Of a stretch of 50,431 nt of DNA, positions 7,539 through 49,267 are shown one piece after another; positions within the stretch are counted from its first letter, which is position 1, and every line of letters begins with the position of its first letter. The DNA is from Clostridia bacterium (GTDB lineage: Bacteria; Bacillota; Clostridia; UMGS1883), in NCBI GenBank assembly GCA_017451505.1, contig JAFTOF010000007.1, positions 1-50,431 of the forward strand, written 5' to 3'. A program made the translations under genes and the position numbers. A model generated the notes under the pieces. It was not told where the DNA came from. It did no database searches and saw only the letters and a list, made by a program, of their open reading frames with translations.

Positions 7539-7567
7539 ATTATAACAGTTCTTTTTTCTTTTGTCAA
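7539..7567 (-). promoter_or_regulatory. consensus sigma-A promoter of infC-rpmI-rplT
   Basis: On the minus strand TTGACA (7562-7567) and TATAAT (7539-7544) are separated by exactly 17 bases. Both hexamers are perfect. The expected transcription start is near 7532. Confidence 0.9.
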
Positions 7568-21431: not shown

Positions 21432-23576
21432 ATGGATATATTAAAGCAGCTCTGCAGTGAGCTAAAAACAGACGAAGCAAAAACCAAAAACGTAATAAAT
21501 TTACTGGACGAGGGGAACACTATCCCCTTTATTGCCCGATACCGCAAGGAGCTTACGGGCAACATGGACGACCAGCTTATCCGCTCAATTTCCGACAGAC
21601 TGGCATCGCTTCGTGCTATTGAGGAAAGAAAGGGCGAAATAATAAGGCTTGTTGACGAGCAGGGTAAGCTCACCGATGAAATTACAGAGGCGGTTAATAA
21701 TGCAAAAACGCTTACCGAGCTTGAGGATATCTACCGCCCGTACCGTCCAAAAAGAAAAACACGTGCAAGCGTGGCACGCGAAAGGGGACTGGCTCCTTTG
21801 GCGGAATTGATTATGGGGCAGACATTCGGCGTAGATATTAACGAGGAAGCCGCAAAGTATATTGACGAGGAAAAGGGCGTTTTATCCTGCGAGGATGCTA
21901 TTTCGGGTGCAAAGGATATTATTGCCGAGGATATTTCGGACAATGCCAACTACAGAAAGGGCATACGTCGCCTCACCTATATGAACGGTGTGATTGCCAG
22001 CAAGCAGGGCAAAGGCGAAAACAGCGTATATCAGATGTATTACGAATTTTCCGAGCCTGTAAAGGCCGTTGCCGACCATAGAATACTGGCAATGGACCGT
22101 GGAGAAAAAGAGGATGTTCTAAGCATTAAAATTGAGCTTGATACGGATATAATCACAAACTTTCTCTTTAAGGAAGTAATCACAAACGAATCCTCTCCCC
22201 TTGCTGACCTTGTAAAAGAGGCGACACTTGACAGCTACAAAAGGCTTATTGCCCCCTCTATTGAAAACGAAATCCGCACCGACCTTACGGAGCGTGCACA
22301 AAACGGAGCAATTTCCCTTTTCAGCGTAAATCTGAAAAATCTTCTTATGACACCGCCTGTTAAAGGGCATATTGTATTAGGCGTTGATCCGGGCTACAGA
22401 ACAGGCTGTAAATTAGCTGTCGTTGATTCCACGGGCAAGGTACTGGAAACAGGCGTCGGCTATTTCACCCTTGAACATCACGATACCGAAAAGGCTAAAA
22501 AGCAGATTAAGGGTATGATAGAAAGACACAACGTGACCCTTGTTTCAATCGGTAATGGTACAGCTACGGGAGAAAGCGAAAAGTTTATTGCTTCCCTTAT
22601 AGGAGAGCTTGACCGCGATGTAAAATATATGGTTGTATCGGAGGCAGGGGCTTCCGTATACAGTGCCAGTGAGCTTGGGGCGAAGGAATTTCCCGACTAC
22701 GATGTATCACTCCGTAGTGCAGTTTCGATTGCAAGAAGGCTTCAGGACCCTTTGGCAGAGCTTGTTAAAATAGACCCCCGTTCAATCGGTGTGGGGCAGT
22801 ATCAGCACGACTGCAATCAGAAAAAGCTTTCCGGGGCTTTAGGAGGAGTTGTTGAGGACTGCGTAAATAGCGTAGGCGTTGACCTTAATACGGCATCGGC
22901 ATCGCTTCTTGGATATATTTCGGGCATTTCCTCCGCCGTGGCAAAAAACATTGTAGCATACAGAGAGGAAAATGGCTCTTTCACAAAAAGGAGAGAGCTT
23001 CTTAAGGTAAGCAAGCTCGGAGAAAAGGCATTTATCCAGTGTGCAGGTTTCATGCGTATCCCCGGCGGAAAGGAATTTTTGGATAACACCTCCGTACACC
23101 CCGAAAGCTACGATGCGGCAAAAGCACTTATTGAAAAATGCGGCTACGGCAAAGAGGACATTGCAAAGAGCAGCTTCCCCGATATTTTAAGCCGTGTGAC
23201 AAAGGAAATTGCCGAGGAAATATGCACCCAATTTGACATAGGTATGTTCACCCTGCGTGACATTTGCGATACTCTTGCAAAGCCCGGCAGAGATATGCGT
23301 GATGAGCTTCCAAAGCCTCTTTTACGAAGCGGATGTATGTCCCTTGATGAGCTTACAACTGATATGATTTTAGAGGGAACTGTACGCAATGTAATTGACT
23401 TTGGTGCATTTGTTGACATCGGCGTGCATCAGGACGGACTTGTGCACATTTCCCAGATTTCAAATAAATTCATTAAGCATCCCACAGATGTTTTGAGCGT
23501 AGGCGATATTGTAAAAGTAAAAATCCTTGACGTTGATAAAGAGAAAAAAAGAATTTCACTTACGATGAAGTTTTAA
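21432..23576 (+). CDS. tex: Tex-family RNA-binding protein
   Basis: Tex is a conserved cytoplasmic nucleic-acid-binding protein, linked to transcription and translation quality in several bacteria. Its 714 residues show the Tex N-terminal helical region, a YqgF-like RNase H fold (VLGVDPGYRTGCKLAVVD, near residue 320), helix-hairpin-helix motifs (NTASASLLGYISGISSAVAK) and a C-terminal S1 domain (GTVRNVIDFGAFVDIGVHQD). The length is normal. GAGGT lies before ATG. It follows the transporter by 11 bases and ends the plus-strand run. Confidence 0.95.
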   Translation: MDILKQLCSELKTDEAKTKNVINLLDEGNTIPFIARYRKELTGNMDDQLIRSISDRLASLRAIEERKGEIIRLVDEQGKLTDEITEAVNNAKTLTELEDIYRPYRPKRKTRASVARERGLAPLAELIMGQTFGVDINEEAAKYIDEEKGVLSCEDAISGAKDIIAEDISDNANYRKGIRRLTYMNGVIASKQGKGENSVYQMYYEFSEPVKAVADHRILAMDRGEKEDVLSIKIELDTDIITNFLFKEVITNESSPLADLVKEATLDSYKRLIAPSIENEIRTDLTERAQNGAISLFSVNLKNLLMTPPVKGHIVLGVDPGYRTGCKLAVVDSTGKVLETGVGYFTLEHHDTEKAKKQIKGMIERHNVTLVSIGNGTATGESEKFIASLIGELDRDVKYMVVSEAGASVYSASELGAKEFPDYDVSLRSAVSIARRLQDPLAELVKIDPRSIGVGQYQHDCNQKKLSGALGGVVEDCVNSVGVDLNTASASLLGYISGISSAVAKNIVAYREENGSFTKRRELLKVSKLGEKAFIQCAGFMRIPGGKEFLDNTSVHPESYDAAKALIEKCGYGKEDIAKSSFPDILSRVTKEIAEEICTQFDIGMFTLRDICDTLAKPGRDMRDELPKPLLRSGCMSLDELTTDMILEGTVRNVIDFGAFVDIGVHQDGLVHISQISNKFIKHPTDVLSVGDIVKVKILDVDKEKKRISLTMKF

Positions 23577-23582
23577 GAAATT

Positions 23583-23620
23583 AACCTTGGGAAGGTTGCC
23601 CAACTAACCTTGGGAAGGTT
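23583..23620 (+). repeat. two direct copies of a short hairpin after tex
   Basis: AACCTTGGGAAGGTT occurs at 23583 and again at 23606. Each copy is itself a hairpin (AACCTT/AAGGTT) and could act as part of a weak terminator. They precede the dispersed repeat R1. Confidence 0.6.
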
Positions 23621-23624
23621 ACCC

Positions 23625-23888
23625 CTTCTTTTGTAACCAAAAGAAGCAAAAGTTCTGGGATTGCGATTTCCCGGACCCTTAAAACGCTCCTGTCGGGCTA
23701 AGAAACACCCTTACCTAATCTTTTAAGTAGTGGGTTTTGTTTTGAAAAATATTACTCTTTTGTGCCACCGAAACAGATTCGGCACTTAGCCTCAGCTGTT
23801 TCTAAATTCTGTCCACCTGCAAAGGAAACTGATGTGGACAGAATTTTGTCAGTCAGAGCAATATTTTTCAAAACCGTACTTTGGTGCT
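23625..23888 (+). repeat. dispersed structured repeat R1 (about 264 bp)
   Basis: The head hairpin is CTTCTTTTG-TAAC-CAAAAGAAG. After it come a GGGATTGCGATTTCCC segment and CTCCTGTCGGGCTAAGAAA. An outer stem TTTTGAAAAATATT/AATATTTTTCAAAA encloses a CCGAAACAGATTCGG hairpin and a 10-12 bp hairpin with loop GCAAAGGAAACTGAT. The tail is CCGTACTTTGGTGCT. Related copies are at 48607-48868 (same strand) and 48907-49175 (inverted). No coding region is seen in 23577-23941. Confidence 0.8.
23869..23888. repeat. left arm of a 20-bp perfect inverted repeat
   Basis: CAAAACCGTACTTTGGTGCT is the exact reverse complement of 24643-24662. It is the tail of R1, and the pair bounds the RHH cassette. Confidence 0.9.
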
Positions 23889-23941: not shown

Positions 23942-24244
23942 TCAAGTAAGTTCTTCAAATTTGCCTTTAAGCTGAAAACCGATTTTAGCTCCTACAATAA
24001 GCCCTATCTCAAAAAATACTTCTTCGTATACTGATGCTTGCTCATAGAAATATTCCGATATTCTGTCCTGTTCTTCAATGTCGGGGAAATTCTGCCGAAA
24101 AAAAGCATTTGCCTTACTTCTTGCTTCGCTAAGCTGCTGCGAATAAGTTTTTTGGGAAGTTTTCTCACAAGTTTCTCCGCCATTCCTTAAAAAGTTTTGG
24201 AGAGAAATTAATTCCGCACGTTGTAAATAATCCTCAAATTTCAT
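23942..24244 (-). CDS. small protein of unknown function in the RHH cassette
   Basis: This is a 100-residue acidic, probably helical and soluble protein beginning MKFEDYLQRAELISLQNFLRN. There is no signal peptide or membrane span. I recall similar short clostridial proteins with RAELIxLQNFLR and a later FxEIGLIxGAKIxFQ stretch, which here reads FFEIGLIVGAKIGFQ, but no function is known. GGAGG precedes the ATG. It is downstream of the ribbon-helix-helix gene on the same strand, with a predicted antisense RNA between them. It could be an effector controlled by that repressor; this is inference. Confidence 0.75.
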   Translation of the reverse strand: MKFEDYLQRAELISLQNFLRNGGETCEKTSQKTYSQQLSEARSKANAFFRQNFPDIEEQDRISEYFYEQASVYEEVFFEIGLIVGAKIGFQLKGKFEELT

Positions 24245-24270
24245 AAAATACCTCCGTTTTTAATTTGCAT

Positions 24271-24299
24271 TTGACAGAAGTATTTTTCCGTAGTATAAT
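24271..24299 (+). promoter_or_regulatory. perfect consensus promoter for a predicted antisense RNA
   Basis: TTGACA (24271-24276) and TATAAT (24294-24299) are exactly 17 bases apart on the plus strand. No plus-strand gene follows. A hairpin and terminator lie within 80 bases. Confidence 0.85.
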
Positions 24300-24305
24300 A
24301 TTTAC

Positions 24306-24380
24306 AGATAGATACTTCTATCGGGTTATGAGCTTGTTTGTTACCTTGCTGGGGGAGCAACAAGCTCATTTCTTTATTTC
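24306..24380 (+). ncRNA. predicted small antisense RNA (about 75 nt)
   Basis: Starting about seven bases after the -10, the transcript would hold a 5' hairpin GATAGA-TACT-TCTATC (24307-24322). A perfect 11-bp stem follows, ATGAGCTTGTT (24328-24338) with AACAAGCTCAT (24359-24369) around a 20-base loop, then a T-rich run. The RNA overlaps the last codons and stop of the RHH gene and the gap before the small unknown gene, so it is antisense to their common mRNA. No open frame of note lies within it. Confidence 0.65.
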
Positions 24381-24542
24381 GGACCTTAATTTATCAATTC
24401 CGTGACGGATAGCTTCTGCTTTATCCACATTTTTTTGTTGGCAATAAGCTTTTAAAACTTGTGCACTTTCATCATTAAGCCTTACAGTTATCCGTTCTTT
24501 CATTGGATTTTCAATTTTAGGTCTTCCTGTTCGTGGTGACAT
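24366..24542 (-). CDS. ribbon-helix-helix (CopG/Arc-type) DNA-binding protein
   Basis: The protein has 58 residues and begins MSPRTGRPKIENPMKERITV. The first strand ERITVRLND, the helix DESAQVLKAYCQQ and the second helix VDKAEAIRHGIDKLRSE form a ribbon-helix-helix fold, which dimerises and binds operators through the strand. Similar MSPRTGRPK proteins occur on clostridial conjugative elements. The ribosome binding site is GAGGTG before the ATG. Its own promoter overlaps a 15-bp perfect palindrome, a likely autorepression site. It precedes the small unknown gene at 23942-24244, probably as an operon. Confidence 0.85.
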   Translation of the reverse strand: MSPRTGRPKIENPMKERITVRLNDESAQVLKAYCQQKNVDKAEAIRHGIDKLRSEIKK

Positions 24543-24553
24543 TCTATCACCTC

Positions 24554-24602
24554 ACTTTTTGTCTGCCACTAATTACATTATAATTAATGGCAGACAAAAA
24601 GT
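24554..24602 (-). promoter_or_regulatory. palindromic operator of the RHH gene
   Basis: ACTTTTTGTCTGCCA (24554-24568) and TGGCAGACAAAAAGT (24588-24602) are perfect inverted 15-bp arms with a 19-bp spacer. They straddle the minus-strand promoter: TTGACT (24600-24605), 17 bases, TATAAT (24577-24582). A dimeric repressor bound here would block RNA polymerase. The RHH product 12 bases away is the natural candidate. Confidence 0.85.
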
Positions 24603-24642
24603 CAATAGTTTTTCTGTTTTTTTATAAAAAAACTATTAACTC

Positions 24643-24684
24643 AGCACCAAAGTACGGTTTTGGTCCTTTTGGCGGCAAAAGGAC
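24643..24684 (-). repeat. R4: deletion derivative of the dispersed repeat, carrying the right arm of the 20-bp inverted repeat
   Basis: On the minus strand the head hairpin GTCCTTTTG-CCGC-CAAAAGGAC is joined directly to the tail CAAAACCGTACTTTGGTGCT. The roughly 200 bases that separate head and tail in R1, R2 and R3 are missing. Positions 24643-24662 are the exact inverse of 23869-23888. Confidence 0.75.
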
Positions 24685-24771
24685 ATAAGCCTTCATGCTT
24701 CCACGATAGAAAGAAAAAAGCGTTGTAAAAAGTTTAATCTCTTTACAACGCCTTTTATTTTTTAAATCAGA

Positions 24772-48194: not shown

Positions 48195-48462
48195 GCCGTA
48201 CACCCCGAAATCGACGTCCCTCCAAGAGCGGAAACATCCAGTTAGCTCAAACCAGGCACCCTTGCGGCACATACCGATGGCTGCTTATTGCTGCTCGGTT
48301 CCCCGCCTGACAAGGTTCACAGGTCGATATTGCGCAAGACCCGATCGTCAACACCACTTAAATGCTCCTGACCGGTTGGAAAAAACGCCTCAATCGGGGA
48401 CATAACCTCCGCTATAGCGGGTTGCGGATTCAGGGCACCGCTACCTCCCCGGCCGGTACAGC
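48195..48462 (-). ncRNA. ffs: signal recognition particle RNA (large, Alu-containing type)
   Basis: The minus strand begins with GCTGTAC, which pairs with GTACGGC at the 3' end, giving about 268 bases. The 5' Alu domain GGGGAGGTAGCGGTGCCCTG is diagnostic. The S-domain loop GTCAGGCGGGGAACCGAGCA, next to AGCAATAAGCAG, is the Ffh-binding helix 8 signature. It targets membrane and secreted proteins together with Ffh. Placement just before dnaX is typical for Firmicutes. Confidence 0.96.
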
Positions 48463-48906: not shown

Positions 48907-49175
48907 GCCAAAGTAGTTTTAGAAGTTTCAAGGCTGACTGTCAAAATTCTGTCCACATCAGTTTCCTTTGCAGGTGAACAGAATTTAGAAACAGCTGAGG
49001 CTGAGTGCCGAATCTGTTTCGGTGACACAAAAGTCGCAGAAGCTTCAAAACGGAATTATATAATTTAGTAAGGCAGACAAGTTTACGGATAAACTATGCC
49101 GCCCCCGCGAGGCCGTTTTAAAGGTCCGGGAAATCGGAATCCCGGCGGTTTTGGTCCTTTTGGCGGCAAAAGGAC
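48907..49175 (-). repeat. dispersed structured repeat R3, inverted relative to R2
   Basis: On the minus strand the head is GTCCTTTTG-CCGC-CAAAAGGAC (49154-49175). The core is nearly identical to that of R1: CACCGAAACAGATTCGGCAC and the hairpin with loop GCAAAGGAAACTGAT. R2 and R3 lie tail to tail, 38 bases apart. Confidence 0.8.
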
Positions 49176-49267
49176 ACGCCTCTCATCGCCACGATGAATT
49201 AGTTTGCAATTTCTTGCAAGCGTTACAATACGCAGATTACAACTTAACAGTAGTAATTTCCTATACG

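Follow-up and report, generated by a model that had tools for sequence, protein, structure and literature searches.

A probable two-lock control cassette of a ribbon-helix-helix repressor and an antisense RNA leader switch in Firmicutes phages and Clostridia genomes

Genes and signals at the locus

We analyzed a 50,431-nucleotide stretch of a Clostridia bacterium genome (contig JAFTOF010000007.1, hereafter the window), in which a small cassette lies by itself, with tex (21432-23576) on one side and a 115-aa gene adjoining ftsZ on the other. The cassette is composed of a gene for a 58-aa ribbon-helix-helix (RHH) protein, a convergent predicted antisense RNA (asRNA) of about 75 nt, and a third gene located about 120 nt past the RHH stop codon, which in the window encodes 100 aa. 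Its features, with the basis of each in brackets, are the following:

24554-24605, minus strand: promoter of the RHH gene, TTGACT-17-TATAAT, with an inverted-repeat operator-like site (sequence)
24366-24542, minus strand: gene for the 58-aa RHH protein, predicted to be an autoregulated repressor (Pfam, PHROG)
24271-24299, plus strand: asRNA promoter, TTGACA-17-TATAAT (pattern match; same position in relatives)
24306 to about 24377, plus strand: predicted asRNA with two hairpins (fold z -5.8; terminator in relatives)
24328-24379, plus strand: asRNA terminator, with an 11-bp stem, a 20-nt loop and a T-rich tail (sequence)
24312-24322, minus strand: leader arm5, inside the asRNA target (covariation, folds)
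24273-24286, minus strand: leader arm3, or anti-SD, complementary to the asRNA promoter spacer and -35 end (covariation, folds)
24245-24257, minus strand: Shine-Dalgarno (SD) region of the 100-aa gene, pairing with arm3 over 13 bp (covariation, folds)
23942-24244, minus strand: gene for the 100-aa protein, the presumed controlled gene, predicted all-helical (sequence, structure model)
23869-23888 and 24643-24662, no strand assigned: left and right copies of a perfect 20-bp inverted repeat on either side of the cassette (sequence)

The first-pass annotation, made from the letters alone, had described a perfect promoter with no gene behind it, followed by a 6-bp hairpin, an 11-bp perfect stem and a T-rich tail, and each of these elements is indeed present. 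TTGACA (24271-24276) and TATAAT (24294-24299) are separated by a 17-nt spacer on the plus strand, exactly where claimed, and no gene follows on that strand; the hairpin is formed by 24308-24313/24318-24323, the stem by 24328-24338/24359-24369, and the tail, TTCTTTATTT, occupies 24370-24379. The exact promoter pattern is found twice in the window, against 0.01 occurrences expected from shuffled windows; the other copy lies at 7539-7567 on the minus strand. Folding of positions 24306-24380 gave -29.4 kcal/mol (z -5.8), a value equaled by none of 200 shuffles, while a search of the window and 16 relatives against Rfam 15 returned no above-threshold match at the asRNA. The RNA overlaps both the last codons of the RHH gene and the gap ahead of the 100-aa gene, so that the earlier description of it as antisense to both is right in essence, but its target would be the leader of the 100-aa gene, the overlap of about 12 nt with the RHH end being probably incidental.

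The 58-aa protein matches PHROG 876 (transcriptional repressor; E 8.4e-14), and its match to Pfam RHH_3 falls below the cut-off (E 6.6e-4). The gene has a promoter of its own carrying a 14-bp inverted operator-like repeat (24554-24602); the first-pass annotation mentioned neither this promoter nor the conservation of the overall cassette arrangement in many phages. Among the relatives, the operator-like half-sites are found at the same place around the -10 box; their orientation is inverted in approximately half of the loci and direct in 15 of 52.

The 100-aa protein is predicted to be helical and looks soluble. It matched no family in Pfam, PHROG, NCBIfam or PADLOC, neither antirepressor, toxin nor defence; a fold search with its structure model (mean pLDDT 73.6) returned nothing significant, and no relatives of it were found in viral contigs. 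The family is present in 12 of 391 genomes of the class, and in the four genomes inspected its gene carries its own promoter, next to an HTH or RHH-like gene in divergent orientation. The cassette was apparently joined to the 100-aa gene, a pairing that may be a chance capture, as the window copy lacks an antirepressor and the family elsewhere stands beside HTH or other genes with a promoter of its own. In three congeners, the site between tex and ftsZ is occupied by two other genes, LrgA/LrgB-like by eye, without the cassette. The promoter-hairpin block is also found in two other genomes of the same genus: in one (G005) the same 100-aa gene lies behind it at a different chromosomal place, and in the other (G004) it is located within a phage region. 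Other stand-alone copies of the cassette adjoin housekeeping genes.

A layout shared by phages and Clostridia genomes

A scan with the 58-aa RHH protein yielded 80 viral loci and 79 genome loci (named assemblies, nearly all Clostridia), and approximately 150 RHH relatives from phages and Clostridia genomes display the same layout. In nearly all loci, a sigma-70 promoter opposite to the RHH strand lies 80-115 nt past the RHH stop, and a terminator ends near that stop. In the genome set, a promoter matching at least 8 of 12 positions was detected in 77 of 77 loci (76 of them at 80-115 nt past the RHH stop), as compared to 45% of other ORFs; with the same geometry, at least 9 of 12 was reached by 94% of RHH loci and 13% of other ORFs, and at least 10 of 12 by 75% and 3%, respectively. 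The viral set has the same promoter layout. The exact promoter together with its 5' motif had no match in viral contigs, since the arms vary in sequence while their pairing is kept. Two Geobacillus plasmid CopG matches that were inspected lack the layout.

A terminator stem-loop was found in 65 non-redundant relatives, 39 of which carry UUGG in the loop on either strand (shuffled mean 11.1, largest 21). This motif agrees with YUNR, the pattern described for recognition loops of antisense RNAs (PMC4485353); the general YUNR pattern, found in 52 loops, is not clearly above shuffles (mean 43.2, largest 55), and UUGG is absent from the terminator loop of the window. In six loci (L032, L034, L039, L059, L064 and L119), it is the sense strand, and not the antisense strand, that carries the motif, as though the recognition loop had been inverted.

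In phages, antirepressor domains are frequent in the first or second gene past the asRNA. Matches to Rha, Bro-N, ORF6N, AntA or P22_AR_N amount to about 18 for the 59 genes in first position and about 16 for the 37 in second position, counts that were tallied over all members, with the share of loci being roughly half of 59. Named phages with both cassette and antirepressor are Javan119, MismyG, phiFN37 and phiCDIF1296T; in MismyG, the gene order is minor capsid, CopG, hypothetical, antirepressor KilAC and scaffold. Elsewhere, the cassette also lies ahead of nuclease-like and peptidase-like genes. Judged from these sequences, the same unannotated, predicted lock precedes antirepressor genes in many viruses of Gram-positive bacteria. 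The Rfam GP20-b motif was observed about 1.8 kb downstream of the cassette in L044 (6586-6642) and about 1.2 kb downstream in L117 (3912-3974).

Alternative pairings in the leader

The sense leader of the third gene contains three segments, namely arm5 (within the asRNA target), arm3 (outside the asRNA) and the SD. The asRNA promoter spacer pairs with the first 40 nt past the -10 box (covariation z 18.6), and the spacer and -35 region also serve as the 3' arm of the leader hairpin and as the anti-SD, a point absent from the first-pass annotation. Arm5 and arm3 covary in the viral leaders (z -20.5, n=60), in the independent genome set (z -18.1, n=47) and in a strict pooled set of 34 strictly non-redundant leaders (z -16.9). 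Arm3 also covaries with the SD in the same three sets (z -13.0, -10.4 and -9.9), and no covariation was detected between arm5 and the SD (z 0.1, -0.9 and -1.6). When all SD cores were set to GGAGG, the arm3-SD covariation still reached z -9.0, and therefore reflects more than pairing to a common SD. Moreover, mismatches in the repeat are A-C in 59 cases and G-T in 33, against 41 and 42 upon permutation, an excess that points to the sense RNA as the folding strand. A reading of the repeat as a single-stranded DNA promoter or a cruciform was dropped given the arm3-SD covariation.

In the whole-leader fold of the window, the SD is mostly open, and without arm5 a 13-bp stem forms over it; predicted SD openness falls from 0.73 to 0.00 upon target occupation. 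Across 62 leaders, it decreases from 0.28 to 0.09 (p 4e-10), with little predicted change in some relatives because their SD is already closed in the free leader. As part of this drop would be expected from any released strand, it is the permutation tests that carry the argument. In addition, a run of at least four U follows the SD in 52% of target genes and in 10% of others, which suggests that the SD hairpin could double as a terminator in some members; in the window, the corresponding stem (-11.9 kcal/mol) is A+U rich, which makes termination there uncertain.

Overall, the locus is probably a portable two-lock control cassette, which consists of an RHH repressor and an asRNA leader switch and has its origin in the immunity module of a Firmicutes phage. 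The RHH protein would repress the promoter of its own operon (RHH gene, leader and third gene), and a constitutive asRNA of about 75 nt would pair with the leader. In the unpaired leader, arm5 would hold arm3 and leave the SD of the third gene open; with arm5 taken by the asRNA, arm3 would pair with the SD and block translation, and in approximately half of the relatives, in which a U-run follows the SD hairpin before the start codon, transcription may be terminated as well. The third gene would be expressed solely as a burst, either on arrival of the element in a cell that contains neither inhibitor or after a drop in the inhibitors; this purpose is argued from the logic of P22 and of plasmids. 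The sequences themselves show the layout, the promoter and terminator, the covarying pairings and the link to antirepressors, and from these transcription, RHH binding, the action of the asRNA and the burst are inferred.

Known systems and competing explanations

By layout and target, the closest system is arc-sar-ant of phage P22 (immunity I), which the first-pass annotation had not named. Both have a small RHH repressor gene, a convergent asRNA of about 70 nt with its terminator at the RHH gene end, and then an antirepressor, with the same position and order as in the phage relatives, inserted among late genes (PMC2629481). Unlike P22, the cassette is predicted to act by a leader switch and often includes an extra small gene, and the window copy has no antirepressor. 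The c4 RNA of P1/P7 is likewise described as an antisense RNA controlling an antirepressor, but as one that acts around the ant ribosome-binding site (PMC12197685).

The first-pass annotation had instead seen in the combination of a small DNA-binding protein and a strong asRNA the logic of plasmid copy control. This stands as a resemblance. In pMV158 copG-RNAII-repB, an RHH repressor is combined with a convergent asRNA over the gap upstream of the start signals of the controlled gene; however, RNAII is a 48-nt single hairpin that inhibits repB translation, and an anti-SD switch is not described in the portion of the source available (PMC4485353). In pT181, a leader hairpin that sequesters the SD is released by antisense binding and acts both as a terminator and as a block of the SD (PMC5435934), and the same alternative pairing, of antisense target versus SD hairpin, is found in the cassette leader. 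Of the relatives searched against RF00242 (ctRNA_pT181; cut-off 56), L044 scored 45.7 bits, below the cut-off, and neither the window RNA nor any other relative tested gave a match. As a statement of function, plasmid copy control is not supported: the relatives are mostly from phages and often lie ahead of antirepressors, not of replication genes. The gene controlled in pMV158 is a replication initiator, while the 100-aa gene matches no such family in Pfam, PHROG or NCBIfam, and the cassette target differs from that of pT181 both in not being a replication gene and in being paired with an RHH repressor.

The first-pass annotation had also invoked toxin-antitoxin loci. In a type I-like system, the 100-aa protein would be a toxin that the asRNA and the RHH protein keep in check, which would suit the tight double control, the stand-alone chromosomal position and the occurrence of a small cassette at differing chromosomal places within the genus. 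However, the protein is soluble-looking and helical, unlike the short hydrophobic peptides of type I toxins, the searches gave no match to a known toxin or defence family, and elsewhere the same lock is placed ahead of antirepressors and of nuclease-like and peptidase-like genes, which leaves this explanation improbable. A slightly smaller chance is given to simple pairing of the asRNA over the ribosome-binding site, without a leader switch, as in P22 sar. The gene order and the convergent RNA are the same, but sar has its promoter inside ant, starts at the ant start codon and spans the ant SD, whereas the asRNA of the window begins at 24306, some 50 nt ahead of the SD, which is thus out of its reach; in addition, the arm3-SD pairing covaries. 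Just as unlikely is the possibility that the covarying repeat across the asRNA -10 box is only a DNA operator, for the RHH protein or a phage repressor, with the leader switch as a by-product. The repeat does straddle the -10 box, a usual place for operators, and the RHH promoter likewise has a repeat across its -10; nevertheless, by eye, the arms differ from the operator of the RHH gene at that locus, and both the arm3-SD covariation and the excess of A-C over G-T mismatches would be left unexplained.

The best-known cases of antirepressors controlled by antisense RNA come from a small number of enterobacterial phages (P22 sar, P1/P7 c4). Returning to the two-lock cassette, we lean towards the broader view that it represents a widespread, so far unnamed family of phage asRNAs, in which a pT181-like translational or transcriptional attenuator is combined with an RHH repressor into an exchangeable "entry-pulse" cassette, coupled to one gene or another by phages and bacterial chromosomes alike. 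No description of the module was found in a literature search, with subscription papers mostly outside its reach, and a 2025 review of phage sRNAs does not mention Gram-positive/Firmicutes cases. Such an RNA-plus-repressor lock would be at work in phages of gut Clostridia, Streptococcus, Clostridioides and Fusobacterium, one controlled gene being exchanged for another, by a predicted mechanism that differs from that of P22 sar, resembles plasmid copy control and is testable. The relatives would also constitute a natural set of mutually different antisense switches, and may offer a route to predicting which small phage genes act only at entry.

Some further elements were observed in the window. 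Just past tex, positions 23579-23624 hold two tandem copies of a 23-nt unit containing AACCTTGGGAAGGTT. A repeat of about 31 bp, GGTTTTGGTCCTTTTGGCGGCAAAAGGACAT, is present at 24655-24685 and 49146-49176 and recurs at several places in the genome (G000, contigs C7, C22, C17 and C23). Lastly, a bacterial large SRP RNA is located at 48196-48461 on the minus strand.
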